Shown here: one piece after another, positions 16,569-46,900 of the stretch | Numbering within the stretch: position 1 is the stretch's first letter | Layout: each line of letters opens with the position of its first letter | IMG/VR virus record: IMGVR_UViG_3300017987_000005 | Coordinates: 1-64,000 of that record | Origin: a virus | Strand: one strand, 5' to 3' | DNA length: 64,000 nucleotides | Position numbers and translations under genes: made by a program | Notes under the pieces: generated by a model | Told to the model about the DNA's origin: nothing | Databases searched by the model: none | The model's input: the letters and a program-made list of their open reading frames with translations, nothing else

Positions 16569-16931
16569 TCATTTGCAGTTGTTAAACCACGCTACCGGAA
16601 CTGTCCGTTTTTTGGGTTTCCACTCACGAAATAGCGGTTGGAACGAAACGTCACTTCCAACCAACATAACGCCATCAACATCAGCTCTACGCGTCACTGA
16701 TAGCTGAAACTCTCCTGGAATGCGCTCACTATACTTCTGAGCATAGAACTTCTTGGCTAGCTCCGGAAAAGTCGCCCACGCAGCTTCCGGTACATCGCTA
16801 GCCTCCTCGTATGACACGATAAGCTTTACTGTAGAAACGTTCTGCTTTATAGCCTGTCGTAATCGTGACGTAAATTCGTCAAATATATTGACAACTTTTT
16901 TTGTCCATATAGTCGTTTTAATGGAGGCCAT
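16569..16931 (-). CDS. W-F tail protein (ends WFNNCK)
   Basis: 120 aa. A helical N-terminus is followed by a strand-rich C-terminal half and the tail VPVAWFNNCK. The start codon lies inside the tail codons of the gene upstream (TTTAACAATGG). It is the last gene of its operon, and the tail is kept although no gene follows within 300 bases, which argues for a role in the protein itself. Confidence 0.7.
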   Translation of the reverse strand: MASIKTTIWTKKVVNIFDEFTSRLRQAIKQNVSTVKLIVSYEEASDVPEAAWATFPELAKKFYAQKYSERIPGEFQLSVTRRADVDGVMLVGSDVSFQPLFREWKPKKRTVPVAWFNNCK

Positions 16932-17313
16932 TGTTAAACCATCCGTTACAAACTCCCATATTATATCCCGGAGGAATAAAGTGTATCCGGACTTCTTTCA
17001 TATCGGACACGTATGCTTGGTCATGCGACTTGAATGCTATCTTATGGTCACCACTTCCCATATTATGTTGAGTAACTATGGCGCAGTTCCACAGAGCTTC
17101 AGCAACTTCGGTGTCTCCCTTATACTTACTCTTAATAACACTCGTAAAATAATCCTGGAACCACGAGTCAACAGTAAACGGAAGTCGTTTAAGAAGGCTC
17201 TGGCTTATCACCGCGACCTTATTCTTGAGCATGGCGTCTACAAGCTGGTCAAGTATTGCGCCGACTTCAGCATGCGTAAACTGCTGCTCGTCACTATTCC
17301 TATGCCACGCCAT
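16918..17313 (-). CDS. W-F tail protein (ends GWFNNGLH)
   Basis: 131 aa, beginning MAWHRNSDEQQ. The start is set by the ATG buried in the AAT-AAT-GGC of the upstream tail; longer starts would run far into the upstream gene. A coiled or helical N-terminal half is followed by strands and the tail. No known family. Confidence 0.7.
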   Translation of the reverse strand: MAWHRNSDEQQFTHAEVGAILDQLVDAMLKNKVAVISQSLLKRLPFTVDSWFQDYFTSVIKSKYKGDTEVAEALWNCAIVTQHNMGSGDHKIAFKSHDQAYVSDMKEVRIHFIPPGYNMGVCNGWFNNGLH

Positions 17314-17641
17314 TATTAAACCACCCCCGTCCGGCGTCATTACGCAGTCTAAATATCTTCCCGTGCTCATCGTCTCCGACAAACGCATACGAACGTTTAT
17401 CAATAGCTTTATGGTGCGGATATTTCACAATAAGGTATACCATAAATAATGGAATAAAAGTCTCTTTGGTCCGCTTAGGCATAGAACTCCATAAAGCATG
17501 CGATATAGTTACGCGCAGCTCTCCCTTCTTACGACGTTTATCCAGCTCGTCAAAAATCCCACGCGTATTCTTATCAAGCTTTTTAATAGTCCTGATGAAT
17601 CCCTCCATCATCTTACGTCCACTTTTATGGCGTTTCATCAT
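17300..17641 (-). CDS. W-F tail protein (ends GWFNNGVA)
   Basis: 113 aa, strongly basic N-terminus (MMKRHKSGRKM), then helices and strands. The upstream tail codons GGG-AGG give its Shine-Dalgarno sequence. Function unknown. Confidence 0.7.
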   Translation of the reverse strand: MMKRHKSGRKMMEGFIRTIKKLDKNTRGIFDELDKRRKKGELRVTISHALWSSMPKRTKETFIPLFMVYLIVKYPHHKAIDKRSYAFVGDDEHGKIFRLRNDAGRGWFNNGVA

Positions 17642-17922
17642 GACCTCCCGTTGTTAAACCAGGGGTAAACAGCAACGATGTCATAACGGACTATCTTCCG
17701 ACCATCTTCCTTCATGTGTCCTTTGCGCACGACTAGAATACGGTCGTCTATAAAAGGGATATCTTCTTTACGTACTTCGCGGATAACAATCTGAAGAAAC
17801 TTCTTTATATCCTTGACTCCGTTCTTCTTGAATAGCTGATAAGAAGCTCCGACTTTGGCTTTATTTTTACCGAACCTGCTCCTGCAACCGCCAAGTGCTA
17901 GTTCCAGGGCCATATCGCTCAT
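17638..17922 (-). CDS. W-F tail protein (ends PWFNNGRS)
   Basis: 94 aa. Helical N-terminus with a basic stretch (CRSRFGKNKAKVGASY), then beta-rich (RILVVRKGH, IVRYDIVAVY) and the tail. It overlaps the helicase stop by four bases and is the first of four tail genes between the helicase and the promoter at 16.5 kb. Confidence 0.7.
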   Translation of the reverse strand: MSDMALELALGGCRSRFGKNKAKVGASYQLFKKNGVKDIKKFLQIVIREVRKEDIPFIDDRILVVRKGHMKEDGRKIVRYDIVAVYPWFNNGRS

Positions 17923-19250: not shown

Positions 19251-19504
19251 TTCTCACCATTCCGACAAGGCAACAAAGCATGCTCAGTATTAGCGATAAG
19301 TACGAGCATTTCAACTACGTCATCAATTCGTACGGCTGCGTTCAAAGGAAAATATGCGATAGTAAGCTTACACTGGTCATTGAATTGTATAATCTTCTTC
19401 ACAGTTTCCTTATCAATCTCCTTTGCAGTACGCATATACAACTTAATGGCATCGACACTGTACAGTTTCTCTGCTAATACTCTCAATAAATCTGTACTAG
19501 GCAT
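19247..19504 (-). CDS. small protein between polymerase and helicase
   Basis: 85 aa, largely helical (AEKLYSVDAIKLYMRTAKEIDKETVKKI). It overlaps both the polymerase stop and the helicase start, so it is translated with the replication proteins. No domain recognised. Confidence 0.55.
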   Translation of the reverse strand: MPSTDLLRVLAEKLYSVDAIKLYMRTAKEIDKETVKKIIQFNDQCKLTIAYFPLNAAVRIDDVVEMLVLIANTEHALLPCRNGEK

Positions 19505-21416
19505 AACAAATCTTAGCTCCGCAACAAGACGTAACTACATATTCTTCTTTATCGTCCGGGTCCCACGCTTTCGCTACATCCGCCCTCACGTCAATCTCAT
19601 CATCCTCGTGTGCTCCGCACTTTCCTGGGCACGTCATCGCTTTAACCCAGCGGTCACCGATATATCCATCCACTACAACAGGAACGCGAAGCTTTACTGC
19701 GTCCTCCATACATTTCGCTATTTCACAATACGTCTGAAACGGATGGTGGCGCTCATCAATCGAAAATAACAGCTCATCATGAACTTGAATCAAGGGCTTG
19801 CAATCAATTTCCGGATGAGACATCAAATAGTCGCGAACACGTTTAATAGCAACTCCCATAATATCGGCGGCGCCGCCCTGAATCGCAGAATTAAAATACT
19901 GGCGAAATGCGCGCTCACGCTCATAATCGTCCATAGAACGGTCATACGGAACTCGTCTGAATCGTCCGCTGATAAGCTTATACGGCTTTTCATCCCACAG
20001 TTTCTCACGCATATGGTCCATGAACTTCTTTATTCCCGCATACTGCTCAAAGAACTGGTCAATAAACTTGTATGCTTTGGTCTTGGATATCCCGGCTTGT
20101 TCTGAAAGGGAATTTGCTCCCATCCCATAAACAATCCCGAAGTTAATGACTTTCGCATGGCGGCGGTCATCTGTCTCCAGGAGCTTCTGAGTAGTTGCGT
20201 GAATATCGTCTCCCTTATTAAACGCCTCAATCATCCTCGGCTCGCGACTCAAATGCGCAAGTATCCGAAGCTCAATCTGACTAAAGTCCAATCCGATAAA
20301 TAGGCGCCCAGGCTCGGGAACAAATACATTCCGGAAATTCCCGTGCGTCGGCATCTGCTGCAAGTTCGGGTTGGATGCGCTCATCCGCCCCGTAACTGTG
20401 CGAACCTGATGAAATGATGGGTGTATCCGTCCGTCTGGAGAATCCTTGATAAAATGGATAAACGGCTCTGCAAACGAATCAATAAACTTCGTCAACTCAC
20501 GATGCTGAAGAAGAAGCTCCGGTATCCTATCCTTACGCTTCACTTCCCGCGCAAGCTTCTTCAGTACGGCTGCGCCGGTCCCGTAATATCCGTTCTTCCC
20601 CTTCCGGGTAATTTCGTCTACTCGAGTCCCCTTAGTAATCGCTACGGGGTATCCGAGTCCTCCTTCCTTTTTATCGCTAAACAATACTTGTGATACTTGC
20701 TGAGAAGAGGTCAAAAGAAACTTCTTTCCGACAGTCTCATAAATGAGATTCGTTACTTTCTCAATATCTCCGCGAACACGTATGCGGAAATCGCTGAGTT
20801 CTTTCGGGTCAACTTTGATTCCGTTATACTCCATATCAGAGATATATCTCGCAACATCCATCTCGAGTTCAAGAAGAACGCGCAGTAAATTCTGATTTTC
20901 AATCTCTTTAATCAGAGCTTTGAACAGCATAAAAGTATAATGCCCGTCCTCTTTCGCATACTCTTCTAATGAAGGTACTTCCTCACTCTCCTCAAAAAAC
21001 GTTCCCTCCATCTCCGCAATAGCTTCATACGGAATCATATCATGGTCAAAAAAACGCTTAACCAAATGGTCAAGCGAATACTGCTTATAATTTTCGTCCA
21101 GTAGCCACGCAGCAATCATGGTACATACGAGCTGACAATCGGGTTCAATTCCCCACTTGTACTTCAGCCACTTATAATCGAATACCATGTTGTGCGCTAT
21201 CAACCACGCATCTTTTCGCTTGCACACTGCTTCAAGCACAGGCTTCCCATCGTCCTTGGGGAACCAGAAGTCGCCATCTACAGTTGAGATGGCGACTCCT
21301 TTAATTTCCCCTGTACGTGGAGTAAGACTGGTAGTCTCGAAATCGAAAACTACGTGTTCACGCGACGATACGGAGTCGAGGCACTTAGAAAGGGACGGCT
21401 CCGGGGTCGTCGTCAT
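19497..21416 (-). CDS. polA: DNA polymerase I (family A) with 3'-5' exonuclease and C-terminal zinc ribbon
   Basis: 639 aa. Replicative phage-type polymerase. Exonuclease motifs: DFETTS (25-30), NMVFDYKW (76-83) and YAKEDGHY (about 153-160). Polymerase motif A is DFSQIELR (377-384), motif B RRHAKVINFGIVYG (418-431, Phe at the sugar-discriminating position) and motif C QVHDELL (544-550). There is no 5' nuclease domain. Unusual is a C-terminal addition of about 45 residues with cysteines at 596, 600, 631-632 and 637, a likely zinc ribbon, not part of the usual fold. It overlaps the SSB-like gene by 32 bases. Confidence 0.95.
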   Translation of the reverse strand: MTTTPEPSLSKCLDSVSSREHVVFDFETTSLTPRTGEIKGVAISTVDGDFWFPKDDGKPVLEAVCKRKDAWLIAHNMVFDYKWLKYKWGIEPDCQLVCTMIAAWLLDENYKQYSLDHLVKRFFDHDMIPYEAIAEMEGTFFEESEEVPSLEEYAKEDGHYTFMLFKALIKEIENQNLLRVLLELEMDVARYISDMEYNGIKVDPKELSDFRIRVRGDIEKVTNLIYETVGKKFLLTSSQQVSQVLFSDKKEGGLGYPVAITKGTRVDEITRKGKNGYYGTGAAVLKKLAREVKRKDRIPELLLQHRELTKFIDSFAEPFIHFIKDSPDGRIHPSFHQVRTVTGRMSASNPNLQQMPTHGNFRNVFVPEPGRLFIGLDFSQIELRILAHLSREPRMIEAFNKGDDIHATTQKLLETDDRRHAKVINFGIVYGMGANSLSEQAGISKTKAYKFIDQFFEQYAGIKKFMDHMREKLWDEKPYKLISGRFRRVPYDRSMDDYERERAFRQYFNSAIQGGAADIMGVAIKRVRDYLMSHPEIDCKPLIQVHDELLFSIDERHHPFQTYCEIAKCMEDAVKLRVPVVVDGYIGDRWVKAMTCPGKCGAHEDDEIDVRADVAKAWDPDDKEEYVVTSCCGAKICYA

Positions 21417-22122
21417 AGTCTACATCTCCTTCATCTGAAAAATCACTGTCATCGTCACTGGAAGAGCTTTTTCCGTGCTTCTTCCCACGCCATTCCGCAA
21501 GGTGAGCAATCTCCTTCATATCACTCTTTGAATAAGGCTGGAGAATCTCTTCGTAATCAATGGAATCATAATCGTCCACGTCTTCTTTCTCAACGTAGTC
21601 CCAATCATCCCCGACTACGGGCGCTTGCTTTGCTCCGGTACGCGTGACAGAGAACCGCTTCCCTACAATCCCCTTGAGTTTCTTATGCTTTGCGCGCAGA
21701 AGCTCCAGAGTGTAGTACTTCGCGGGGAGGAGGCAGACAATGTCCTTTACTTCGTCTCCGTCCTTGTTTGTGTAGCCCGTGTGGTCTACAATGGTGAAAA
21801 ATCCGGTATGCGAGGCTTTGTTCCCCGCGTCACACAACGGGCATGTTCCCTTTTTGGGATTCCCCCGACCATCGCGTCTTGCGATGCAAGTCGCATGTCC
21901 AGGACTGTCATCAATCCAATAGGTATGCTCAAATACTCTGAAGCACTTGTCATCAACGAAAGAAAGCTCTTTCGTCTCATCCTTCGGAATCCAGAAACGC
22001 TTCGGGACAGGTTCATCATTCTTGTCCTTCTTCTGCCACCACGCATATCCGCTTCCACCCCCTCCTGATGAGGGGAAATCTTCCGACGACGGCATCCCGG
22101 TATCAAACCATTTGTCTCCCAT
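21385..22122 (-). CDS. ssDNA-binding protein, T4 gp32-like type
   Basis: 245 aa. It has a short glycine-rich N-terminus, a core with a zinc-type pattern (CFRVFEHTYW..H.TC.....CPLCD) and KKLKGIVGKRFSVTRTG, and a long acidic tail (SSSSDDDSDFSDEGDVDYDDD), the layout of phage single-strand binding proteins whose tail recruits polymerase and helicase. It is encoded directly before the polymerase and after the primase. Assignment rests on layout and context. Confidence 0.7.
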   Translation of the reverse strand: MGDKWFDTGMPSSEDFPSSGGGGSGYAWWQKKDKNDEPVPKRFWIPKDETKELSFVDDKCFRVFEHTYWIDDSPGHATCIARRDGRGNPKKGTCPLCDAGNKASHTGFFTIVDHTGYTNKDGDEVKDIVCLLPAKYYTLELLRAKHKKLKGIVGKRFSVTRTGAKQAPVVGDDWDYVEKEDVDDYDSIDYEEILQPYSKSDMKEIAHLAEWRGKKHGKSSSSDDDSDFSDEGDVDYDDDPGAVPF

Positions 22123-22174
22123 AACTTGTTCCTTTCTGTCTTAGTAAGACATCACGCTAACTCAAAATGAGTTG

Positions 22175-23164
22175 CTACTTATGGACTTTCTTTTTAGTCC
22201 GGCTTTTCGGTTCTCTTCGAACCACTGTTCTGTTGTCGAACAATTCGACAAGCTCTTCTCTGGATAAATCGCAAGGGTCTTTTCCTTCGGGCAACTCGCA
22301 CTTAAAAAGCATCGGCACATGGTCATACAGATACTTCTTCACGGAACGCTCAAGCTTCTTTCCTCCTTCGTCACCGTCCGCCATAGTAGTCAGACTGTTC
22401 ACTCTCTTGAGGATATCCACTTGATACTCGCTGACTGAACTTCCGTTAGCTCCTAACGGTCTTACCCCATCCTTGAATCCATCCAGGTGTAAAACATCCA
22501 ACTGTCCTTCGACGAGCACTACATCATCACCCCCTTTCAAAAACTGCTCTCCAAACAGACAAAGTTCTGCGCAAGTTCCTTTCTCGTACAGCCAACGTTT
22601 TCGACGGTCATCTTTATCCGTCGATAATAATCTCTTAGCAGCACCGACTATGTTTCCCAATGAATCCTTCATTGGTAAAACAAGGTAGTCTCCGTGCTGT
22701 TGGATATCGAACTTATCGATGCAATCAATTGCAATTCCGCGATATATGAGATAATCATAAACGCGAGAACTGGCAGGCGTGTAACGCGCCATCCACTCAA
22801 CATTAAACTCTAGTGTCTCCCCTTCTCCGAACAACCCATCATCCCACGTAAAATCCCGCTCATCTTCGTCAAGCATCTCTTCGAGTTTATCGCACTTCTC
22901 TTCAGGAAATCCAAGCTCCTTCAAAACTGCGACCATATAACCCAAAGAACCCCCGCCAGTCTCGCAGGAAAAACAATGAAATAAATGCGGCTCCTCAATA
23001 CGGATAGATGCGTTACCGAGCTTCTTATCCACTCCGTTCTTATGTTTCCAATGAGCAAATGGACAGCTTATCACGATATTCTCGATACGATGTTTACGAA
23101 AATCGTGTAATTGGTACTTTACTCCCAATATATTCAAGAATTTGATAAGCTCTTCGCGCTTCAT
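22175..23164 (-). CDS. DnaG-like primase
   Basis: 329 aa. The N-terminal zinc site has CPFAH (34-38) and HCFSC (63-67). The Toprim domain has VLVEGQLDVL (Glu 219, Asp 223) and MADGDEGGKK (Asp 263, 265). It is shorter than bacterial DnaG and lacks its helicase-binding domain. It is the first gene below the promoter at 23199-23226 and heads the replication block. It makes RNA primers for the polymerase downstream. Confidence 0.9.
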   Translation of the reverse strand: MKREELIKFLNILGVKYQLHDFRKHRIENIVISCPFAHWKHKNGVDKKLGNASIRIEEPHLFHCFSCETGGGSLGYMVAVLKELGFPEEKCDKLEEMLDEDERDFTWDDGLFGEGETLEFNVEWMARYTPASSRVYDYLIYRGIAIDCIDKFDIQQHGDYLVLPMKDSLGNIVGAAKRLLSTDKDDRRKRWLYEKGTCAELCLFGEQFLKGGDDVVLVEGQLDVLHLDGFKDGVRPLGANGSSVSEYQVDILKRVNSLTTMADGDEGGKKLERSVKKYLYDHVPMLFKCELPEGKDPCDLSREELVELFDNRTVVRREPKSRTKKKVHK

Positions 23165-23198
23165 GCATCACTCTCACGATACTAAATAGACTGCTTGT

Positions 23199-23226: not shown

Positions 23227-23239
23227 GTAAAAAATAACT

Positions 23240-24221: not shown

Positions 24222-24494
24222 TTAAGGCGGCTCCCTTATGATTCCGAAATAGTCTCTTATCGTTGGAAGATGTTCATCGCTTGGCAACTCAAAAGACTCC
24301 TCCTCAATGAAGACCTCCTCCTCTTCTTCTTTATCACAATAACAATCCGGCACAATACTGGTAGCATAGCAATCTCCGTCCCCGTCGCCGTAAACATCGT
24401 CAGTAAGTTCATTGGTAGCTGACGTGGTGGCTCCCCCGGACGTATTCGTCCAGGAACGCGACGTCCCCTGCGTACTATCAGCATAAGGTATCAC
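24222..24494 (-). CDS. acidic low-complexity protein
   Basis: 90 aa, GTG start overlapping the coaD stop. It has a Ser/Thr/Gly-rich first third, then a very acidic middle (DKEEEEEVFIEEES). No domain. A competing frame in the same stretch gives a basic arginine-rich product and is less likely. Confidence 0.45.
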   Translation of the reverse strand: MIPYADSTQGTSRSWTNTSGGATTSATNELTDDVYGDGDGDCYATSIVPDCYCDKEEEEEVFIEEESFELPSDEHLPTIRDYFGIIREPP

Positions 24495-25027
24495 AAAATT
24501 AAACTCCGTTCAGAGTCAGTAAGTTCCCCATATCGTCCGAACTTCGCATATAACTGTATGCGGACAAACGGGCTAACAAATTCCTCGACTGACCCGCCGG
24601 CCCCCATAACCTCCCGGACCATGCTCGAACTAATATACGATATTGACGGGTCTGACATGACAAACACTGTTTCTATGCTCGGGTCAAGCTTACTGTTCAC
24701 AGTCGCAATCGGGTATTCGTACTCAAAGTCCAGTTGATTGCGGATACCACGAAGAATTATATCAATATCGTGCTTCTTACAGAAATCTACAGTCAATCCT
24801 TCGTATGTAAATATCTCGACTTTCGCACTTGCATACTTTCCGGAATGACATTCTGCGGCATAATCGTTAATATGCTGAACGCGTTCCTCTACGCTGAATA
24901 TGGGGTCTTTCTTATTAGTCAGGGCAATGCCGATAACAAGCTCGTCAAATATACGCAGACCGCGCCTTATGATATCCTGGTGCCCTCTTGTCAAAGGGTC
25001 AAATGTTCCTGGGTATAAAGCTTTCAT
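24491..25027 (-). CDS. coaD: phosphopantetheine adenylyltransferase
   Basis: 178 aa. Transfers AMP from ATP to 4'-phosphopantetheine to form dephospho-CoA. Diagnostic segments are YPGTFDPLTRGH (5-16), the substrate loop ILRGIRNQLDFEYE (about 89-102) and YISSSMVREV near the C-terminus. Length is slightly above the bacterial enzyme (about 160) owing to a C-terminal extension (SERSLIL). It is uncommon in phages; here it stands alone without other CoA genes, so it may relieve a host step. Overlaps the acidic gene downstream. Confidence 0.93.
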   Translation of the reverse strand: MKALYPGTFDPLTRGHQDIIRRGLRIFDELVIGIALTNKKDPIFSVEERVQHINDYAAECHSGKYASAKVEIFTYEGLTVDFCKKHDIDIILRGIRNQLDFEYEYPIATVNSKLDPSIETVFVMSDPSISYISSSMVREVMGAGGSVEEFVSPFVRIQLYAKFGRYGELTDSERSLIL

Positions 25028-26167: not shown

Positions 26168-26992
26168 CTAAAATAATATGCTGGCTGGAGAATCCCAACT
26201 CGTATACATGTGTCCGTCCTCCTGGTATATCAGGCTCCGGATATCTTCATTGTGATTCACGCTCTGGACACACTCGTCAAACATCGTAACAGCAATCCCC
26301 TCGAAATCATATACAACTGCTCCGAAAGGAAGCGTACGAAGAACTCGCGCGTCGTCCTTCAAATAACTGAACTGGTCTATAACGCGCTGATACGCTTCTG
26401 CGCACTTATGCTCAGTTATCCACTTGATTACATCAATACACCCTTCGGTCAATCCTTTCGGAACAACAATATTCCTGAAGGATAGTTGGTGTACGTTGGT
26501 CTCTTTGGCAAGTTCGATGGCATATCCGAAATCAAAGTCTTCGGAAAATTTATCAGTCAGGTTCAACGTTGCTCTGACTAACATTCCGTACTTTCTAATG
26601 AACTTCATCATATCAGAAAGCTCTTTCCACTGAGCTAAAGAATCAATTGAAAATGCTACGGTGCTCAGATAGTCGCTCCCGAATATCGTTTTATTTTTTG
26701 TCCAGTTTTTGAGCATGCTTATCCCGTTAGTCTGCATCTCAATAGGGAACTCTGAAAAAACTTCCCCGATTCGTTCACAAGCATTTTTGTTAAGAGTAGG
26801 CTCACCCTTCCCTGTAATCAGGATAGAACTCACTTGAGCAGCTTTAGCTACTGTCCGAGCTTTGACCATATTCCAATAAAACTGCTCGTCATCGTCCGTG
26901 TCCATGTACCCAGTCATCTTAGAGACGCAATAAGGGCAGTCCTTATCGCATCCTTTATAAGGTACACTGATTGTCAGGTTTTGCGCTCTCAC
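26168..26992 (-). CDS. radical SAM enzyme
   Basis: 274 aa. The cluster motif CDKDCPYC (cysteines at 15, 19 and 22) binds a 4Fe-4S cluster. Then come the GKGEPTLN SAM-binding loop (about 61-68) and a (beta/alpha) pattern to the end. No extra cluster domain is seen. The product is unknown; phage members often act in modified-base or tRNA-base synthesis. Confidence 0.88.
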   Translation of the reverse strand: MRAQNLTISVPYKGCDKDCPYCVSKMTGYMDTDDDEQFYWNMVKARTVAKAAQVSSILITGKGEPTLNKNACERIGEVFSEFPIEMQTNGISMLKNWTKNKTIFGSDYLSTVAFSIDSLAQWKELSDMMKFIRKYGMLVRATLNLTDKFSEDFDFGYAIELAKETNVHQLSFRNIVVPKGLTEGCIDVIKWITEHKCAEAYQRVIDQFSYLKDDARVLRTLPFGAVVYDFEGIAVTMFDECVQSVNHNEDIRSLIYQEDGHMYTSWDSPASILF

Positions 26993-27985: not shown

Positions 27986-28011
27986 TTTCGCTCTCCTATA
28001 TCTACGCTTAT

Positions 28012-28039
28012 ATTATATCATATATATTATATATGTCAA
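28012..28039 (-). promoter_or_regulatory. promoter for the 28 kb to 23.2 kb operon
   Basis: -35 TTGACA, 16-bp spacer, extended -10 TGATATAAT. It lies just after the last gene of a tail-protein operon. Confidence 0.85.
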
Positions 28040-35297: not shown

Positions 35298-35318
35298 TCT
35301 CCTAAAAGCTTCACTTAT

Positions 35319-35346
35319 ATTATATCATATAATAATGATATGTCAA
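35319..35346 (-). promoter_or_regulatory. promoter for the 35.3 kb to 28 kb operon
   Basis: -35 TTGACA, 16-bp spacer, extended -10 TGATATAAT. It follows the helicase gene stop. Confidence 0.85.
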
Positions 35347-38702: not shown

Positions 38703-39230
38703 TTAATTGGTGACAAAAACGCGCAATCGGTCCCAATTTTTGATGAAAACAGCAAAATAATCGCAAAAAAACTCATTATCAGCTCTGGTAAATTCTCGGT
38801 AATCTTCTGAAAAATTCTCGTCATACAGGTCGCTCGCTTTGTAACTGATTGGAAAACTGAACCCGAACCATGACTTGATTTTGCGTATCAGCGGATTCCA
38901 GTAATAGAATTTTTCCAGGAATGAGAACCATCGTTTCTTCCGCATCTTTGTCATCACATTTGCTAGCGTTCCGTACTCGTTATAGTACATCTCGTTGAAT
39001 AACACGTGACCGAGTTCGTGCAGCAAACTCAGTCGCGTCAACACTGACAGTTTAGCAAGTTTTTCCGGGACAAAAACTGTGTAGTGAGTCGATTCTCCGC
39101 GACGAATCCACTGCACGTAAAATCCTTTTCCATTATGCAGTTTTATTTCGATGCGCTCGCGTATATTTTTGCACTCGATTGCACTGCTGACAAACTCTTC
39201 AATCATCTTCAACAAGTTCTGCTTCTCCAC
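38703..39230 (-). CDS. ImmA/IrrE-like HExxH metallopeptidase
   Basis: 175 aa. HELGH at 71-75 in a helix (LSLLHELGHVLFNEM), with a C-terminal acidic segment (TRADNEFFCDYFAVF) that may give the third zinc ligand, the standard order of small phage/ICE peptidases that cut repressors. GTG start with AGGAG upstream, overlapping the upstream stop. No cognate repressor recognised next to it. Confidence 0.7.
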   Translation of the reverse strand: MEKQNLLKMIEEFVSSAIECKNIRERIEIKLHNGKGFYVQWIRRGESTHYTVFVPEKLAKLSVLTRLSLLHELGHVLFNEMYYNEYGTLANVMTKMRKKRWFSFLEKFYYWNPLIRKIKSWFGFSFPISYKASDLYDENFSEDYREFTRADNEFFCDYFAVFIKNWDRLRVFVTN

Positions 39231-39426
39231 TCATAACTCCTTTCCAATCCGGTCGTTCTTTAGTCGAATTATCACAGATATAAAGACTCCTACTCGCTGT
39301 ATCATAATAGAACTCTCCGACACTCGGGTTGTCAGGATAATTCGGTACCAATTCAATCTCGTCAACAATCACATTTTTAATTTGAAAACGATTGTTGAAC
39401 CAGATGTATTTTCGGTCTACACTCAT
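39199..39426 (-). CDS. small protein with N-terminal W-F motif
   Basis: 75 aa. It begins MSVDRKYIWFNNRFQIKNV: the motif lies at residues 9-12 instead of the end, with TTC-AAC-AAT codons. The rest is beta-rich, including SVGEFYYDTASRSLYICDNSTKE, a motif of tail-fibre and baseplate-type proteins (G-x-x-Y-x-D-x-x-x-x-x-L-Y). ATGA overlap with a tail gene upstream. Confidence 0.58.
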   Translation of the reverse strand: MSVDRKYIWFNNRFQIKNVIVDEIELVPNYPDNPSVGEFYYDTASRSLYICDNSTKERPDWKGVMSGEAELVEDD

Positions 39427-39776
39427 ATCGAAACTGCCCGTCCATTATCAAACCAACTTGAATGAATACTCGACGCGGTTTTCATCCCGGTTACGTGTCT
39501 GTAAACAGTCCCGTCCGGGTCAAAATCAAAGACGAATTCGCACACCGCATGCTGACGATTATCGGTCGTCCAAAGTCGCCACGTATAGTCACGATTTCTT
39601 TTGAAATGATAACGATGTTTTAATGTCGTTTCAACAAGCGTTTCGAATATGTCGAGACGCTTATTTGTACGCGGAATCTCCTCCGATTTTTTGACAGCAC
39701 TACACCAGTTGCGGTCCAAGAATACGCGGAAAGTTCCCGCCTCCCACGCAGCTATAATTTGCTCTTCTTCAGACAT
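39423..39776 (-). CDS. W-F tail protein (SWFDNGRAVSI end)
   Basis: 117 aa. Helical N-terminus, strands (YTWRLWTTDN, HAVCEFVFDFD) and tail. Starts at the second ATG of ATGATG, overlapping the end of the glycosyltransferase-like gene. Confidence 0.66.
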   Translation of the reverse strand: MSEEEQIIAAWEAGTFRVFLDRNWCSAVKKSEEIPRTNKRLDIFETLVETTLKHRYHFKRNRDYTWRLWTTDNRQHAVCEFVFDFDPDGTVYRHVTGMKTASSIHSSWFDNGRAVSI

Positions 39777-40336
39777 CATAACCACTTCAAATTCCCATGC
39801 TTTACAAAGTGCTCATATTCAGTATACTCTGCTTCAAAATTGTGCCGTCCTTTTTTGTGCTCTTTGTTGTAATAATGACCGCCGCCGTCTCCAAATCCGG
39901 CAATAAAAATCTCCGCTTTTGGAAATGCTTCCCGAGCAGTCATTACTCCCATAAATCCGGTCGAAGGTATCGTACCAAAACGCTTCTCATACTTCGCCCA
40001 AACTTTCTCCGAATAGAATCTGATATCATCATTCGACACGCCCGCATAGCGAAGTAAAAACTGGACAATATTTCCATCAAGATTGAAGTGAACTCCGTTC
40101 ATCCACAGCTCTTCAATCGCACCTGAATTCGCGTCACATTTTCCGGCTTGTCTATAGAGTAAGTTGTACACAGAGTGATGCGCTACACACCAGTGAGTCG
40201 TCCTGCTTCCAAGGTCTTTTTCAAACCCCTGGATTCTGAAATCATTAAACCGGACAATTTTACTGCACCGGTCTATTTTCTTTCCTAAGTTTGAGCCGAT
40301 TAAACTCGGGGCATTTCCTATAATAACTACTTTCAT
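39776..40336 (-). CDS. GT29/sialyltransferase-like glycosyltransferase
   Basis: 186 aa. The N-terminus MKVVIIGNAPSLIGSNLGK and IVRFNDFRI match the first sialylmotif of GT29-type enzymes (G-N-x-x-S and R-F-N), and IPSTGFMGVMTA matches the second; the end has a histidine-rich YEHFVKHG. Such proteins transfer sugars to glycans; in phages they may alter host surface sugars or virion proteins. It ends KWL, where a W-F tail would stand, and sits inside the tail-protein operon. ATGA overlap with the upstream gene. Confidence 0.78.
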   Translation of the reverse strand: MKVVIIGNAPSLIGSNLGKKIDRCSKIVRFNDFRIQGFEKDLGSRTTHWCVAHHSVYNLLYRQAGKCDANSGAIEELWMNGVHFNLDGNIVQFLLRYAGVSNDDIRFYSEKVWAKYEKRFGTIPSTGFMGVMTAREAFPKAEIFIAGFGDGGGHYYNKEHKKGRHNFEAEYTEYEHFVKHGNLKWL

Positions 40337-40668
40337 GCTTGACGTCTCCTTCCGTTACTGAACCATTGGCGCAAGCGTAAGCGCAGAGCTAGCTCCTGTT
40401 TATTATATTGTCTGACAAGCTCGTGCTCAACCATCGCTTCAAGCGCTCCGGTCTCTCCCTTTTTGTAGCACTCGTCTACGCATTCCGGACACATTGAGAC
40501 TCTCATAAAGATATACTTTTTCCTAATAAAAGTCCAGTGACATGTGCCGCGAGTCCTCACGCAGTCCCCGGCTACGAGTGGTTTCCTGCATATAAAACAC
40601 GTCGTGTCACACCCTTTATTTACAAGTGTGGAGCAGTGCGTAATCGTTCCTAAATCTTCGACTTGCAT
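40333..40668 (-). CDS. W-F tail protein with zinc site (QWFSNGRRRQA end)
   Basis: 111 aa. Two cysteine pairs (CFICRKPLVAGD and CPECVDEC) around strands form a zinc fold seen in other tail proteins. The tail has Ser at the variable position and TTC for Phe. The tail codons GGA-AGG-AGA give the next gene its ribosome-binding site. Confidence 0.66.
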   Translation of the reverse strand: MQVEDLGTITHCSTLVNKGCDTTCFICRKPLVAGDCVRTRGTCHWTFIRKKYIFMRVSMCPECVDECYKKGETGALEAMVEHELVRQYNKQELALRLRLRQWFSNGRRRQA

Positions 40669-41087
40669 ATACCATTCTCGAACCAAGGAATCACTTCTAA
40701 ACTCATCAACGTATCACTCCACTTCGGCACATGTTTCCAGCTATCGTGCTTAAAAAACGTATAACGCACTTCCGGGTCATCGGTACCCACTTCGTAAAAA
40801 ACGCATAATCCGATATCCAGCTCCCAGTCGTGAAAAGTAAGCATCCCCATTTTTCCGTCGCGACGAAGACTGGTTCCCGTAAGTGCGAATCGCTGCCTGT
40901 ACTCCATCAGTTCTTTGTGAATAAATGATTCGACATGGAGAGCTACTCCATGAGAAACATAAAACGGACTTTCATACAGAGAATGATTAAAACTCGCCAC
41001 GTACACGGCATGCTTAAGCGGGTCTGCTATCTTATACAGGAATTCCCGTATTTCTTTCAAATCCTCTTCAGCAATCTCGATAGTCAC
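40650..41087 (-). CDS. W-F tail protein (PWFENGICKSKI end)
   Basis: 145 aa, GTG start. N-terminal helix (AEEDLKEIREFLYKIADPLK), then strands (WELDIGLCVFYEV, EVRYTFFKHDSWK) and tail VIPWFENGICKSKI. It overlaps the downstream gene by 19 bases. Confidence 0.66.
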   Translation of the reverse strand: MTIEIAEEDLKEIREFLYKIADPLKHAVYVASFNHSLYESPFYVSHGVALHVESFIHKELMEYRQRFALTGTSLRRDGKMGMLTFHDWELDIGLCVFYEVGTDDPEVRYTFFKHDSWKHVPKWSDTLMSLEVIPWFENGICKSKI

Positions 41088-41530
41088 TGTCGCGTCCTCT
41101 GATTATTAAACCACGCCGGCTTATAATCCGGCACTATCTTTCCCTCATTAAATCGTTTCTTAATCTTTGTGCGCTCATCCTCATTCGTGAAATAATCGAC
41201 AAGTATCTTATGGGGATTCCCGTAACTCTTTCTGAATATAATTAAAATCCCCCCTCTTTTTCCTCCGCCGTCTCGATAATCAACGATTATCATATCTCCA
41301 TGAACAAGTCCCGGCACAAGATTCTTTGTTGTGAATGATTTCTTGTTATACCCAAAACGCTTCTCGTACATTGGATTACGAAGAAGACGGTCAATCTTCG
41401 CACACACATTCCGTCGTATCCGCCGCTTAAACGTATGCGCAGCATGTTCCCCCGAGTCAGAGTTCTTCAGTACAACACTGACGACAGCTTTAGCTGAGCG
41501 CATAAAAGCTTTGAGAACAGTATCGCTCAC
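41084..41530 (-). CDS. W-F tail protein (AWFNNQRTRQ end)
   Basis: 148 aa, basic. GTG start in the upstream TGA. Helical first half rich in arginine (FKRRIRRNVCAKIDRLLR), strands (GDMIIVDYRDGGGKRGG, ILIIFRKS), then YKPAWFNNQRTRQ. Confidence 0.66.
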   Translation of the reverse strand: MSDTVLKAFMRSAKAVVSVVLKNSDSGEHAAHTFKRRIRRNVCAKIDRLLRNPMYEKRFGYNKKSFTTKNLVPGLVHGDMIIVDYRDGGGKRGGILIIFRKSYGNPHKILVDYFTNEDERTKIKKRFNEGKIVPDYKPAWFNNQRTRQ

Positions 41531-42021: not shown

Positions 42022-42031
42022 AATCACTCTC

Positions 42032-42514
42032 CTAAACTATATGGACGTCTTCGCTACCGTCAGATTTTTTGATTGTGATTTTTGCAAGTGGCGTGTTGTC
42101 CTTCGGAGGCCCGTCCTCTTTTGGCTCAATGACGGCTCCGGTCTCGGGATACTCTCCTCCGAGGGTATACTCAAGTTCCGGTCCATCAAATTCCCCGTAC
42201 GCCATCCCATCCTGATACATTGCTCGCAAAATAGACAGCCACGGCTCCTGGACATAATAATAAAACTGGTTCTCATGACGTCCGAGACTCCCGTCAGGAT
42301 GACGGAGCAGAACAAGGTCAGTACCGAACGCTCCGGCTTTCTTCCTTACTTGGCAGACATATCCGACATACATACTCCACCCGCGCTCTCCATGATGATT
42401 CCCATGCTGTAACGCGGTTATAACATATCGTCCCGGCTCGGGGTGAGTACTAAGACCCACTCCGAACTCAGGGTCTTTTGAGTCAATAATCTTCTTAAGA
42501 ACTTTTTCGTCCAT
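42032..42514 (-). CDS. beta-rich protein without tail
   Basis: 160 aa. The middle (GYVCQVRKKAGAFGTDLVLLRHPDGSLGRHENQ) and the C-terminal acidic segment (KEDGPPKDNTPL) resemble phage proteins with a small beta barrel. The start lies inside the upstream gene's tail extension. Unknown function. Confidence 0.58.
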   Translation of the reverse strand: MDEKVLKKIIDSKDPEFGVGLSTHPEPGRYVITALQHGNHHGERGWSMYVGYVCQVRKKAGAFGTDLVLLRHPDGSLGRHENQFYYYVQEPWLSILRAMYQDGMAYGEFDGPELEYTLGGEYPETGAVIEPKEDGPPKDNTPLAKITIKKSDGSEDVHIV

Positions 42515-43022
42515 CACACTCTCCTAATCCGTTATTAAACCACTTCCCCGATGAAGGTATCATCCGAGATGCTAATGAATACATAAATACTCTAACTTGT
42601 TCGTCAGCTTCTTCTTTTGTACTTGTTCCGAATATTGTCATATTATAACTGCCCCACTTTACGCTTTTCAGAAATATCCTAAATACGCAGATGGCATATC
42701 CGTCGTGCGGGTCACTGACATACTCTTCCTTCTCATAGTACGGGCATATCACTGCTATGCGAAGAATCCCCTGACAAAGGTCAATCTCCTTTATGGAATC
42801 AGCTCCGACTACAGCGTGCCCCTCCTCAAGCTCATTATATAACGCGCTAGCCAACTCGGTCTTCAAGATAGTCTCTATCTTGTCAATTATCCTGAATCCG
42901 TGTTCAAGCGCATTATCATCGAGACCGTAAATCGCTTCCTCGATAGCAAATGCTATCGATGTCTCAATCTCTCCGAATAAGTCCGAATCCAGGGGTCGCA
43001 TCCTGCTTCTCCAATTTTCCAT
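42495..43022 (-). CDS. W-F tail protein (KWFNNGLGECDGRKSS end)
   Basis: 175 aa, from the ATG nested in the GAT-AAT-GGA of the upstream tail (MENWRSRMRPL). Helical start, strands (YAICVFRIFLKSVKWG, YNMTIFGTS) and tail followed by eleven more residues. Confidence 0.67.
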   Translation of the reverse strand: MENWRSRMRPLDSDLFGEIETSIAFAIEEAIYGLDDNALEHGFRIIDKIETILKTELASALYNELEEGHAVVGADSIKEIDLCQGILRIAVICPYYEKEEYVSDPHDGYAICVFRIFLKSVKWGSYNMTIFGTSTKEEADEQVRVFMYSLASRMIPSSGKWFNNGLGECDGRKSS

Positions 43023-43374
43023 TATCATACCATCGCGCTTCCGGCGCGACCATGTTCTTCAACGACACGTGCGAAATAATATACTTTTTATCAACTCTCC
43101 ATCTGAATCCGATTCCCGGATTCGTAATCATAACTTTCACATGCGCATCATAAAATTCCTCATGCCACTGCGTGCTCGGATACACTATCTGTACTTTAAC
43201 TGCAACGTGGCACTCGTTCTCAATAACGGGAACTTCACTCAAACGCTTCTCAATGTGCTTCTTCAGGTTATACTCAGGCTGCTCGTCAGCCCAAACAAAA
43301 TCCGATAGCTTATCAAATGAAATCTCGTCAAGAATTCGATTCACGTTAGTTTGTACTACATCGCTCCAACTCAT
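42964..43374 (-). CDS. W-F tail relative (RWYDNGKLEKQ...)
   Basis: 136 aa. The tail is present as WYDNG, Phe replaced by Tyr, and is followed by 19 extra residues that overlap the next gene. Strand-rich centre (CHVAVKVQIVYPS, DAHVKVMITNPG). The conservative Phe-to-Tyr change supports selection on the protein. Confidence 0.65.
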   Translation of the reverse strand: MSWSDVVQTNVNRILDEISFDKLSDFVWADEQPEYNLKKHIEKRLSEVPVIENECHVAVKVQIVYPSTQWHEEFYDAHVKVMITNPGIGFRWRVDKKYIISHVSLKNMVAPEARWYDNGKLEKQDATPGFGLIRRD

Positions 43375-43739
43375 CAAGAAACTCCGACTCCATTGTCAAA
43401 CCACGCTCTGCTCATGTCGCATCTGGCAGGGTTATTCACGTCAACAAACGGCGCGGCACACTGATAGCACAACTCCGATGTCGGACTGTCAGGTCCTCCT
43501 CCGGCATAGGCGGACTTGCGAACATAATAATACTCTTCTCTCTTACGTATCTGTGCTCCACACGAATCGCAAAATTCCTCGTTATCAGATATCACTGGAT
43601 TAACGATGAAGCTTGTGCGTAATCCAGAGGCGCGTCCGGCAGCAATCTTTTCAAAAGCCCTTACCGCCGTAGCAACTCTATCCCGGAAAGAAGAGCGTTT
43701 CGGGTGCTTTAGATATCGCTTCCACGCTTCTTTACGCAT
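43374..43739 (-). CDS. W-F tail protein with zinc site (AWFDNGVGVS end)
   Basis: 121 aa. Basic N-terminal helix, then CDSCGAQIRKREEYYYVRK and LCYQCAAPF, a zinc fold, then NPARCDMSRAWFDNGVGVS. AAGGA supplied by the upstream gene's last codons. Confidence 0.67.
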   Translation of the reverse strand: MRKEAWKRYLKHPKRSSFRDRVATAVRAFEKIAAGRASGLRTSFIVNPVISDNEEFCDSCGAQIRKREEYYYVRKSAYAGGGPDSPTSELCYQCAAPFVDVNNPARCDMSRAWFDNGVGVS

Positions 43740-43741
43740 AC

Positions 43742-44113
43742 TCAGTCCTTCTTATTATTAAACCATCCGCGCGTACGAACACGTCCGCACGGAAACTCCA
43801 TATTCAACTCGTACGTATCTCCAGCTTCCAACACTTGTATCGACACCTTCGCTCGTAACAGGTTGTTAGCAAGACTTTTCTCGGTGTTATTCCGGCGACT
43901 GCACTCAACTGTCCATCTATTAATCTTGTTTCTATTAAACAGCTCCCGACACCTCTCCTGAAGAATGGTGCGGTAATTCTGTATCGATACGATGTCCGCA
44001 GGTTCATATTCGAAATGCTTTCCGGCTTCCATGAACTCGTCCTGGAGATTCTCTATAAAACTTTCCGCATCTATCTTGCGCGCTATCTTTTTACGCTTCG
44101 AAAACTTAGCCAT
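43742..44113 (-). CDS. W-F tail protein (GWFNNKKD end)
   Basis: 123 aa. Basic start (MAKFSKRKKIARKID), helices, strands (RAKVSIQVLEAGDTYELNMEF) and the tail with Lys in place of Gly. The start overlaps the upstream tail's last codons. Confidence 0.67.
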   Translation of the reverse strand: MAKFSKRKKIARKIDAESFIENLQDEFMEAGKHFEYEPADIVSIQNYRTILQERCRELFNRNKINRWTVECSRRNNTEKSLANNLLRAKVSIQVLEAGDTYELNMEFPCGRVRTRGWFNNKKD

Positions 44114-44364
44114 CACATCTTCCCGTTATTAAACCACTTTTTCGGACCAGCATGATATTCTGAATAACAGCAATGACACACAACAACGGTGTGAACAATA
44201 TCGCAATCAACGCGAGGATTGTATGTCGAGTTCTCAACTACGTGCAGCATTTCTCCGTAACCGATATTACCGGCGCACTTCTGACACGTCGAACCCTCCA
44301 AAGCTTCGCACACAATCGAGCTTCGGTCTGCATCCCTTAATAAATATCTGGTATAACTGCTCAC
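44113..44364 (-). CDS. W-F tail protein with zinc site (KWFNNGKM end)
   Basis: 83 aa, GTG start. CQKCAGNIGYGEMLHVVEN then CHCC form a zinc fold like those at 43374 and 45336; tail GPKKWFNNGKM. Confidence 0.67.
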   Translation of the reverse strand: MSSYTRYLLRDADRSSIVCEALEGSTCQKCAGNIGYGEMLHVVENSTYNPRVDCDIVHTVVVCHCCYSEYHAGPKKWFNNGKM

Positions 44365-44912
44365 AAGCTCCTCCGGTTATTAAACCACGTCAAAGGAACG
44401 GGTACAACGAACGTCCCGTTCGGGCACTTAAGTCCAAAACGTACTGACTTATACTCATCCGTCTCCGTCATCCCCTGGACGACAATCTTCAATACAAAAT
44501 CTTCGCGAGCTTCCGTATATACGCGGAACTCGTCAATACTTATCCCATAGTATTTCGAGATAGACTTCTTTAGCGTCCTATCAAACTCAACTGAAGGGTT
44601 CTTCACTCCCGTAAACGCCATTCTGTCAAGTATGTCCTGATGCGCGTCGGCGGCTAATTTATGCAGAGTGCTTATCAGCGTATCTGATTCAAGCATCTCC
44701 TTAAACATTTTCTTTATCGGTCCTCTTGACGCTGCTTTGGACTCTTCTCCGAGTACGTCTTCGATAGCTGTCCACGATTCTCCCATGTACATATACATCG
44801 TATTAGTCGTAGCGTCGTAATGCAGGTCTCCCATGTTAGGCGACTTGGGAAAACTCCCGTCCCCATATCCGTACGACGGCCCTTCCTTAGACACACTCAC
44901 AGCACTTCCCAT
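44361..44912 (-). CDS. W-F tail protein (TWFNNRRSL end)
   Basis: 183 aa, from the ATG nested in AAC-AAT-GGG of the upstream tail (MGSAVSVSKEGP). N-terminal segment MGDLHYDATTNTMYMYMGESWTA is a beta-hairpin motif of fibre-like proteins and resembles the one in the 39199 gene. Then a helical part, strands and VPVPLTWFNNRRSL. Confidence 0.67.
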   Translation of the reverse strand: MGSAVSVSKEGPSYGYGDGSFPKSPNMGDLHYDATTNTMYMYMGESWTAIEDVLGEESKAASRGPIKKMFKEMLESDTLISTLHKLAADAHQDILDRMAFTGVKNPSVEFDRTLKKSISKYYGISIDEFRVYTEAREDFVLKIVVQGMTETDEYKSVRFGLKCPNGTFVVPVPLTWFNNRRSL

Positions 44913-45336
44913 TGTTAAACCAATCCTTATTCGGTGCATGGTGATATCTGCGAAGGTAAATCCGCATCTCATCAGGCTTGTCCCCTATCTCGTTGTCATA
45001 GCAGTGTCGGCACAGGTACGCACAATCAGAATCCGTCTCAGCATCGCACTCCACTTTGACAGCAAACATGTCGGGCTTAAGCGCGTTTCCGCACAACATG
45101 CAGAACTCATCCTTCCGCATTACATGACTCTCAGTGTATACGCGGTAATCAGTCTCCTGCTTCTTATACTTCACTGCGCACAGCGTACAGACTATTTTTG
45201 AGCGGGAAGGCCCGCGTCTTTTCCCGATAATGTAAAATCCCGGCATATCACGAATCGGCACGAGACAATCCATGCACGTATACTGGTCATGGTCTTCTTC
45301 CATCCCTTTTGTCATAACGTATACTGGATGGTCCAT
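44887..45336 (-). CDS. W-F tail protein, cysteine-rich (DWFNNGKCCECV end)
   Basis: 149 aa. Three zinc-type pairs (CMDCLVPIRDMPG, CTLC, CMLCGNAL, CRHC) in two or three modules, then NKDWFNNGKCCECV. The zinc pattern repeats within the protein. Confidence 0.67.
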   Translation of the reverse strand: MDHPVYVMTKGMEEDHDQYTCMDCLVPIRDMPGFYIIGKRRGPSRSKIVCTLCAVKYKKQETDYRVYTESHVMRKDEFCMLCGNALKPDMFAVKVECDAETDSDCAYLCRHCYDNEIGDKPDEMRIYLRRYHHAPNKDWFNNGKCCECV

Positions 45337-45743
45337 TATCGCTCACTCCTGTTATTAAACCACGCATTCGGAATAGCCGGCTCCACAGGCGGCTCGACTC
45401 TGAGATATTTAGCAGTGCACCATATGCATCTGAATCCGTCTCTCCGAAGGTCCTGCTTTCCTTTATACACGATGAACATATACTTCGGTGAATCCTCAAG
45501 CGGTATTACTTCTCCGCACGCTTGGCACGTCGGCTCTTCCTCAGACGTCCAGTCAGTCCGCGAAATAGTATACTGTCTGCTGGTCCCTTTATTGAACTCG
45601 TCTATCGCTTCACGTATCCGCTGCTGGAATACTTTCCACGGGTCAACAATACTCCAGGGGTCTCCTCCACAACGGCAGAAGTATCCCTCGTATGTCTGTT
45701 CCCCACACTCCGGGCACGGACGAAGCATTCTATCAGTCCCCAT
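45336..45743 (-). CDS. W-F tail protein, zinc ribbons (AWFNNRSER end)
   Basis: 135 aa. N-terminal ribbon CPECGEQTYEGYFCRCGG, second site CQACGEVIPLEDSPKYMF then CIWC, then VEPAIPNAWFNNRSER. The second module resembles those at 43374 and 44887. Confidence 0.67.
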   Translation of the reverse strand: MGTDRMLRPCPECGEQTYEGYFCRCGGDPWSIVDPWKVFQQRIREAIDEFNKGTSRQYTISRTDWTSEEEPTCQACGEVIPLEDSPKYMFIVYKGKQDLRRDGFRCIWCTAKYLRVEPPVEPAIPNAWFNNRSER

Positions 45744-45924
45744 CACGCATCCCGTTATCAAACCAAGCTCCCGAACACTTCCGGCGCTTCAGGTTCTCAG
45801 CATACACGATGAACTCGGTAAGGGCTTCCTCCCCCATCTCCTTACATTCGTGTATCGTCAGGTCATACTCAAAAGAAGCAAACGCTGACAATGCGTCGAA
45901 ATTCACTTTTCGTTTCTTATTCAC
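45733..45924 (-). CDS. W-F tail protein, small (AWFDNGMRDGD end)
   Basis: 63 aa, GTG start with GGGAG from the upstream tail. Helical, then KRRKCSGAWFDNGMRDGD. One of the smallest members. Confidence 0.63.
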   Translation of the reverse strand: MNKKRKVNFDALSAFASFEYDLTIHECKEMGEEALTEFIVYAENLKRRKCSGAWFDNGMRDGD

Positions 45925-46262
45925 ACTGCTCTCCCATTATTAAACCAAAACATCTCCATCGGGACAAACTTAAATTCCCGAAGGACATATCTGCTCTTTC
46001 CAAACTCGTCTTTGAACGACACTTTCACAATGACTTTGTTATACAGGCGTCGTCCGCACATCGCATCATCAACAGCAAGAACAGTAAATCCCTCCGGCAG
46101 CGGAGGTCTAATCTCATTATTGAGCTTTATCTTCGCAAGGCTCCGATAACGCTTTGCATTATGAATCCATCTGTTCCTGCGGACATGTTTATTGACGCGT
46201 ATCAGAGCAGCATCAATCTGCGCGTTCCAATCCTCATCCCGTACATACATCCCGGCATCCAT
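45921..46262 (-). CDS. W-F tail protein (FWFNNGRAV end)
   Basis: 113 aa, from the ATG nested in the AAT-AAT-GGA of the upstream tail (MDAGMYVRDEDW). It shares REFKFVPMEMFWFNNG with RKFKFVPEKMLWFNNG of the gene upstream, and both have a helical first half and central strands, so they are paralogues. Confidence 0.7.
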   Translation of the reverse strand: MDAGMYVRDEDWNAQIDAALIRVNKHVRRNRWIHNAKRYRSLAKIKLNNEIRPPLPEGFTVLAVDDAMCGRRLYNKVIVKVSFKDEFGKSRYVLREFKFVPMEMFWFNNGRAV

Positions 46263-46566
46263 TATTAAACCACAACATCTTCTCCGGAACAAACTTGAAC
46301 TTCCGTATGGCAAGTCGTCTGCTTCCGGCATCGTTCGTAAATCTGACAACTACGCTTACAGCAACATACGGGAAATCCGGAGTCGGCTGGATATCCGAGG
46401 TTTGTATGGTCGCGTCCCGGATACGCTCGGCATCAATAGTATCCCTCATCTCCTCCTTCACGAGATTCGCATACTCGAATGAGGCTTTCATACGCTTCTC
46501 CCGGCAGATGCGCTGATGCGCTCGGGTAATAGCGACATTAATCAGTGACAGCACGCTCTGGCTCAT
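46234..46566 (-). CDS. W-F tail protein (LWFNNGCRDVCTG end)
   Basis: 110 aa from an ATG with GGAG seven bases upstream; a nested start 21 bases earlier is also possible. Helical start (SVLSLINVAITRAHQRICREK), strands and the tail. Paralogue of the gene downstream. Confidence 0.7.
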   Translation of the reverse strand: MSQSVLSLINVAITRAHQRICREKRMKASFEYANLVKEEMRDTIDAERIRDATIQTSDIQPTPDFPYVAVSVVVRFTNDAGSRRLAIRKFKFVPEKMLWFNNGCRDVCTG

Positions 46567-46900
46567 CCCGCAACTCCTCACATCCATTATCAAACCAAGC
46601 TCCCGGAAAGTACGTCGGGTATAAATGGCGGTATATCACGCTCTCACTCTCATCGTTTTCCATGTACAGCAGCTCAACGCGAATATGCGGCTGAGGCACA
46701 TTCTTGCTCTTGGTCATCTGGATACAGTCAACGCTCCATCCGTGGGGATAGTTCCATCCCTTCACAAGCATGTTAATCATTGTCCGTATGGCTTTCTTAT
46801 ACGTCGTGGGGCGTCTTGACTCCCCCACACGTATCACCCACGCATGCGCTTGATTGATAGCGTACTGCAACTGTCCGCGTATGGTTCCTCGTATCGTCAT
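46538..46900 (-). CDS. W-F tail protein, first gene of its operon
   Basis: 120 aa. Leader GGAGAGTGAACATG just below the promoter at 46926-46953. Helical first half (GQLQYAINQAHAWVIR), strands (HIRVELLYMENDE), YFPGAWFDNG and twelve more residues. As it heads the operon, its own start is not inside a tail. Confidence 0.68.
   Translation of the reverse strand: MTIRGTIRGQLQYAINQAHAWVIRVGESRRPTTYKKAIRTMINMLVKGWNYPHGWSVDCIQMTKSKNVPQPHIRVELLYMENDESESVIYRHLYPTYFPGAWFDNGCEELRDEPERAVTD

Follow-up and report, generated by a model that had tools for sequence, protein, structure and literature searches.

A short WF[ND]N tail shared by about 40 otherwise unrelated early-type proteins of one phage

Short linear motifs that give unlike proteins one receptor are already known as a kind, for instance the clamp-binding motifs and the cargo-loading peptides of encapsulins. 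Among phages, the nearest known precedent for a short terminal signal common to several dissimilar small proteins is the capsid-targeting sequence of coliphage T4, which is N-terminal, is carried by few proteins and is cleaved on maturation. In bacteria, the C-terminal tip of the single-stranded-DNA-binding protein (SSB), of the type DDDIPF, is a short docking peptide at the protein's end, through which many partners are brought to single-stranded DNA (ssDNA). Here we describe a five-residue tail, hereafter the tag, on about 40 unrelated proteins of a phage known from the 183,648-bp IMG/VR record IMGVR_UViG_3300017987_000005, of which bases 1-64,000 constitute the window analyzed. We found no paper in the searchable literature that describes the motif or the phenomenon, and thus no precedent there for such a grafted tail. 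Clamp-binding and encapsulin peptides have different sequences, and we found nothing to link the tags with a clamp or an encapsulin. In the bacterial system the SSB bears the peptide for its partners, whereas here many partners bear the peptide, and the tip is unlike the tags in sequence. Unlike the T4 signal, the tails are mostly C-terminal, number about 40 and lie in early-type operons.

For whole-genome counts the remainder of the record was joined from further stretches, and 288 genes were predicted over its full length, every one on the minus strand. The pattern WF[NDES]N occurs 36 times in these 288 proteins against 0.4 expected from shuffled proteins, and it falls in the last 30 residues of 33 proteins against 0.04 expected after shuffling (about 800-fold enrichment). 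The 29 C-terminal tails of the original prediction were all recovered at their positions, in frame and on the minus strand, and the genome-wide search against chance bore out their excess. About 11 further C-terminal tails, at 64.0-67.9 kb and 148-167 kb, lie beyond the window or straddle its end, so that the whole record holds about 40 C-terminal copies, two N-terminal ones (gene 39199-39426, MSVDRKYIWFNNR; gene 166454-166687, MNMTEWFNNK) and one internal copy (gene 158636-159157). The motif has no occurrence in the 70-odd structural genes. As a control, 2.64 Mb of other fetched DNA yielded 8 comparable tails, all in loci retrieved by the tag pattern itself, against 38 in this phage alone. 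The sequence was also recovered at >99.9% identity in contigs of two other metagenomes and hence is not an assembly error. The tail is accordingly real and highly non-random, and about 40 early-type proteins of this single phage bear it.

Within the 29 window tails the fourth residue is N in every case, F is replaced by Y once (gene 42964-43374) and 20 of them have G in fifth place. The conserved core is better written as WF[ND]N with K or R two residues further on; the G included in the original consensus stands outside this core. The tails do lie near the C-terminus, with a measured range of 0-17 residues before the stop instead of the "usually within ten" first estimated. The tagged genes and tag-like sites of the window are as follows (lengths in amino acids, aa; tails given up to the stop unless stated otherwise; codons of the motif in brackets):

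16569-16931, minus strand: 120 aa, tail WFNNCK (16575-16589); last gene of its operon, a promoter following
16918-17313, minus strand: 131 aa, tail WFNNGLH (16927-16941)
17300-17638, minus strand: 112 aa, tail WFNNGVA (17309-17323)
17638-17922, minus strand: 94 aa, tail WFNNGRS (17647-17661)
28048-28248, minus strand: 66 aa, tail WFNNF (28051-28065); last gene of its operon, a promoter following
28229-28669, minus strand: 146 aa, tail WFDNGRKVY (28244-28258)
28670-28891, minus strand: 73 aa, tail WFDNGRR (28679-28693)
28878-29066, minus strand: 62 aa, tail WFNNGRG (28887-28901)
29840-30082, minus strand: 80 aa, tail WFENGRK (29849-29863)
32409-32870, minus strand: open frame with WFNNW (32763-32777) upstream of a likelier start at 32723; fused, decayed or internal tag
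33210-33638, minus strand: 142 aa, tail WFNNSKVEAYA (33231-33245)
33638-34045, minus strand: 135 aa, tail WFDNGEK (33647-33661)
34077-34469, minus strand: 130 aa, tail WFENGIGI (34089-34103)
35004-35297, minus strand: 97 aa, tail WFDNGMSA (35016-35030); first gene of its operon
39199-39426, minus strand: 75 aa, the N-terminal motif copy (39388-39402)
39423-39779, minus strand: 118 aa, tail WFDNGRAVSI (39441-39455)
40333-40686, minus strand: 117 aa, cysteine-rich body, tail WFSNGRRRQA (40351-40365)
40650-41087, minus strand: 145 aa, tail WFENGICKSKI (40671-40685)
41084-41530, minus strand: 148 aa, tail WFNNQRTRQ (41099-41113)
42495-43001, minus strand: 168 aa, tail WFNNGLGECDGRKSS (42528-42542)
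42964-43374, minus strand: 136 aa, tail WYDNG (43018-43032), the sole Y, 17 residues before the stop
43374-43739, minus strand: 121 aa, CxxC body, tail WFDNGVGVS (43389-43403); weak paralogue of 45336-45743
43742-44113, minus strand: 123 aa, tail WFNNKKD (43751-43765)
44113-44313, minus strand: 66 aa, tail WFNNGKM (44122-44136)
44361-44912, minus strand: 183 aa, tail WFNNRRSL (44373-44387)
44887-45336, minus strand: 149 aa, cysteine-rich, tail WFNNGKCCECV (44908-44922)
45336-45743, minus strand: 135 aa, body rich in cysteine pairs, tail WFNNRSER (45348-45362)
45733-45924, minus strand: 63 aa, tail WFDNGMRDGD (45751-45765)
45921-46262, minus strand: 113 aa, tail WFNNGRAV (45933-45947); paralogue of 46234-46491
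46234-46491, minus strand: 85 aa, tail WFNNGCRDVCTG (46258-46272)
46538-46900, minus strand: 120 aa, tail WFDNG (46583-46597), 14 residues before the stop
55248-55262, minus strand: KPA-WFNNS, not in the frame of gene 55270-55473 but in that of the region upstream of the next gene; probable decayed tag
63986-64000, minus strand: window part of a further tagged gene, with tail WFNNGRPSQRGKK at record positions 64011-64025

As originally proposed, selection acts on the peptide rather than only on the DNA, as indicated by a single reading frame, variation at wobble positions, tails at operon ends and the absence of RNA structure. All 38 genomic copies of the DNA consensus TGGTTYRAYAAY are on the coding strand, with none on the opposite one; 34 of these sites are in frame with a predicted gene, two (64025 and 166707) are the tails of genes missed by the gene caller, and the other two (32777 and 55262) look like fused or decayed tags. 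The tail Asn is coded by AAT or AAC at the genome background ratio, and the third residue may be N, D, E or S. RNAalifold predicts no pairs across 28 tail regions and Rfam gives no match besides tRNAs; a structured RNA element was hence rejected. No conserved DNA flanks the tails. Tails are kept at 16569, 28048, 66052 and 67916, where no downstream gene or RNA start could use them. The retention of the tail in the first two had been pointed out before; it holds for the core, and the G is missing there (WFNNCK and WFNNF). Many tails overlap the Shine-Dalgarno sequence or start codon of the next gene, and G stands in 21 of 29 tails with a close downstream gene start versus 4 of 11 without one (P = 0.065); together with those two G-less ends, this suggests that the G is partly due to the overlapping Shine-Dalgarno sequence. 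Separately, we observed that in several tails (16918-16931, 17300-17313 and 28878-28891 of the window, among others) the overlapping next gene may start at the ATG within AATGG of the N-G codons.

The freedom at third positions does not extend to Phe: its codon is TTT in 32 of 34 main-cluster tails (P = 4e-6) as against a TTT:TTC ratio of 350:276 in the same region. Pure peptide selection gives no explanation for this bias, which might stem from tag DNA having been copied recently. Two alternatives draw on it. One is that the tail is the translation of a DNA or RNA element, such as a translation enhancer, an operator or a recombination site, with which the overlaps with downstream start signals would also agree; given the constant frame, the unbiased AAT/AAC usage, the terminal genes that keep the tail though a promoter comes next and the lack of both RNA structure and opposite-strand copies, we consider this highly improbable. 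The other is a neutral or selfish spread of gene-end sequence by recombination, in which the peptide has no use. The paralogous pairs among the tagged genes and the decayed copies at 32777 and 55262 fit such a spread; nevertheless, synonymous variation around constant amino acids, the single frame, the lack of conserved flanking DNA and the N-terminal copies speak against it, and we give it a low probability.

The proteins that bear the tag are unlike one another, as had been noted from the window: an alignment of 39 of them conserves only the W, F and N, the bodies have no other common sequence and match almost no families, and the few related pairs are distant paralogues. With the exception of the products of 154257-154700 and 161963-162271, they have no match in named phages, and PADLOC recognizes no anti-defence or defence families among them. 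The first exception belongs to a widespread phage family, whose 80 homologues in IMG/VR all lack WFxN, as do six homologues from named phages; these mostly end at or soon after PGGMPYxV, whereas the protein of this phage goes on with LKRKPRWFDNQKESDTYGKVKCTE. Gene 161963-162271 shows the same pattern, with two homologues that lack the tag. These tagless homologues show that the tags were added to genes of separate origin; the tail is a graft onto existing folds that was acquired in the lineage of this phage. In the eight residues that precede the tag, Pro is abundant (11.6% versus 3.6%), Lys, Arg and Ala are enriched and Asp and Glu are depleted, as expected of a flexible linker, and in the AlphaFold2 model of the 154257 product, the one protein modelled well, the body has a predicted local distance difference test (pLDDT) score of 95-98 and the tag region, at about 50, is disordered. 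The few conserved residues on unrelated folds and the disordered location in that model support the view that the tail has the properties of a short linear motif attached through a flexible linker. Two radical SAM genes (window 26168-26992; record 176184-177020) have weak matches to viperin, NrdG, MoaA and QueE, all below curated cut-offs; as no peptide-maturase model scored above its cut-off for either gene, modification of the tail by a peptide-modifying radical SAM enzyme was set aside.

From these features we infer, with a probability of roughly 0.6, that the tails dock on one shared receptor, whichever receptor that is. WF[ND]N-x-[KR] would then be a short linear motif for docking, borne by a flexible linker rich in Pro, Lys, Arg and Ala and grafted by the phage onto about 40 unrelated early accessory proteins, and the common receptor would gather these in the infected cell. 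A tag by which a protease clears early proteins on schedule would likewise make use of exposed aromatic residues near the terminus of early-type proteins. However, an ssrA-like degron occupies the extreme C-terminus, and here the motif stands 0-17 residues short of the end and also has N-terminal copies, which makes it independent of the C-terminus; a degradation tag is thus improbable.

The genomic setting of the tagged genes bears on a further alternative. The record contains 22 near-identical sigma70-like promoters of one class, with TTGAC followed 15-18 bases on by a TATAATATAAG-like element, extended as TATGATATAATATAAG; all are on the minus strand, at 16.5-77.4 and 155-178 kb, with none between 77.4 and 155 kb and none in the main block of structural genes. 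The units they head are termed early-type from this promoter class. Three of them account for the window tails, which had been assigned to four operons:

46918-46953, minus strand: early-type promoter (TTGACA ... TATAATATAAG) of the unit with tails at 46.9-39.4 kb
35311-35346, minus strand: early-type promoter of the unit with tails at 35.0-28.05 kb
28004-28039, minus strand: early-type promoter of the unit with primase, SSB, DNA polymerase and helicase, ending with tails at 17.9-16.57 kb

Tagged genes lie within such units, often at their ends and flanking replication genes. The replication module comprises a helicase (17919), DNA polymerase (19497), SSB-like protein (21385), primase (22175), DnaB-like protein (35354) and DnaD-like protein (37480). 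This position of accessory genes beside the replication module, never among the structural genes at 69-147 kb, argues against a virion-packaging signal through which the tagged proteins would be carried in the capsid and injected like the internal head proteins of T4. Such a signal would have the T4 precedent behind it, and the bodies of the tagged proteins are a little less acidic than small proteins without the tag; still, 40 of the 43 copies are C-terminal, where the T4 type is an N-terminal signal on head proteins that the prohead protease cleaves, and we saw no sign of a cleavage site. We regard packaging as unlikely.

As for the identity of the shared receptor, a position-specific scoring matrix of the tag was scanned against the whole proteome, and its top match outside the tagged set (11.7 bits, the next being 10.3) is the N-terminus of the following protein:

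21385-22122, minus strand: candidate hub, gp32-like single-stranded-DNA-binding protein of 245 aa, with N-terminus MGDKWFDTG and an acidic C-tail ending in DDDPGAVPF

The assignment of this gene to the gp32-like SSBs is by homology to RcZahn gp57, which is annotated with a T4 gp32-like DNA binding domain, by synteny and by the acidic tail (DDDSDFSDEGDVDYDDDPGAVPF). It adjoins the primase (22175-23164) and polymerase (19497-21416), and the order primase-SSB-helicase recurs in phages DLP_3 and V-YDF132; profile matches, to RB69 gp32 (E 0.34) and the phrog_14578 SSB (E 0.009), are weak. In eight of nine SSB homologues examined, the exception being that of Pseudomonas phage SM1, the motif [WF]-[LMF]-x-[TKR]-G lies near the N-terminus (as WLKTG, WMKKG, FLMRG, FLKKG, WMKRG or FLKTG), in the same register (positions 5-9) in the SSBs of DLP_3, DLP_5 and locus L357, and alignments from an independent member of the family begin at this motif in many Vibrio phages. 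The SSB of this phage deviates from the W[LM]K of its homologues by F and D, the residues of the tag itself, which suggests that the tags and the SSB N-terminal peptide may have a common receptor. At the other end, this protein bears the DDDPGAVPF tip, recalling that of bacterial SSB, where its homologues (L350, L351, L353-L358) end in [ND][EQD]L.

The cooperativity of T4 gp32 comes from its N-terminal domain: on ssDNA, the first 21 residues of one molecule bind the core of the next (PMC12893549). That domain, with its LAST motif, resembles the present case as a short N-terminal SSB peptide, with homologues here keeping [WF]-[LMF]-x-x-G; the residues essential in T4, however, are KRKST and not WFDTG, and we found no description of other phage proteins that carry copies of the peptide. 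On these grounds (the best untagged match, its retention in homologues and the neighbour-binding peptide of gp32), the likeliest candidate for the receptor site would be the groove bound by the N-terminal peptide of the phage's own SSB. The tagged proteins, by presenting a copy of this peptide, would dock on SSB-coated ssDNA and become concentrated at replicating phage DNA.

Several observations weigh against this. About one such tag-like match is expected per proteome by chance, and attention fell on the SSB only in hindsight; none of the replication enzymes bears the tag; no matching tails occur in DLP_3 and V-YDF132, phages with homologous SSBs; and the structure model of the SSB, in which an OB fold would be expected, has low confidence (pLDDT 54), with Foldseek matches that are insignificant, SSBs and PriB among them. 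The TTT bias counts against docking in general. Since the SSB was not specified beforehand and one chance match is expected, we put forward the SSB as the receptor only tentatively, and would call it doubtful. The tags could instead address another receptor, namely a host hub (RNA polymerase, clamp or chaperone) or a phage scaffold. All the peptide-level evidence fits this equally, and early-type, unannotated accessory genes are as expected of host-takeover proteins; no candidate sequence was found for such a receptor, and the SSB remains the best internal match. It is itself a version of docking on one receptor and compatible with the general form of that explanation; we take it as a real possibility, at less than even odds.

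Phage early accessory genes are mostly orphans with no hint of what they do, and a common address tag on about 40 of them would tell where they act ahead of any other knowledge. If docking on one receptor is correct, a virus can equip incoming genes with a peptide of five residues and so assemble a modular system of recruitment, a phage counterpart of eukaryotic short linear motifs. Were the receptor the SSB, the replicating genome would be an assembly platform that a new gene joins by gaining five residues at its end, and this can be tested with one peptide and one purified protein.

The phage is contractile-tailed, with sheath, portal and capsid genes identified, and has about 18 tRNA genes in a cluster. 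Its capsid and portal proteins are about 32% identical to those of Streptomyces phages and others, so that it has no close named relative. Scans of IMG/VR with the polymerase, capsid and portal proteins for tail-bearing relatives gave only near-identical contigs. Capsid alignment found relatives at 46-51% identity, all short structural contigs, and the tag pattern is absent from the 28 records of capsid relatives that were tested. Two DNA-pattern scans for the tag returned isolated coincidences only, scans of GTDB yielded no SSB relative and polymerases only about 31% identical, and profile searches found almost no further SSB relatives in 42 viral records.

Other genes of the record lie apart from the tag. 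Between the portal and major capsid genes, 133560-136871 encodes a 1,103-residue protein of which the first ~177 residues alone are common to the nearest capsid relatives. CoaD (pantetheine-phosphate adenylyltransferase; window 24491-25027) and nicotinate phosphoribosyltransferase (record 145517-146689) are phage-borne genes of coenzyme A and NAD metabolism. Next to the tRNA cluster, window 2021-3523 and 7846-9009 encode a TROVE (Ro60-like) RNA-binding protein and an RtcB RNA ligase, possibly a module for tRNA repair or RNA quality control. Finally, the product of window 8993-9868 matches Apyc1, the phage anti-Pycsar cyclic-nucleotide phosphodiesterase family (Pfam E 2.4e-34).

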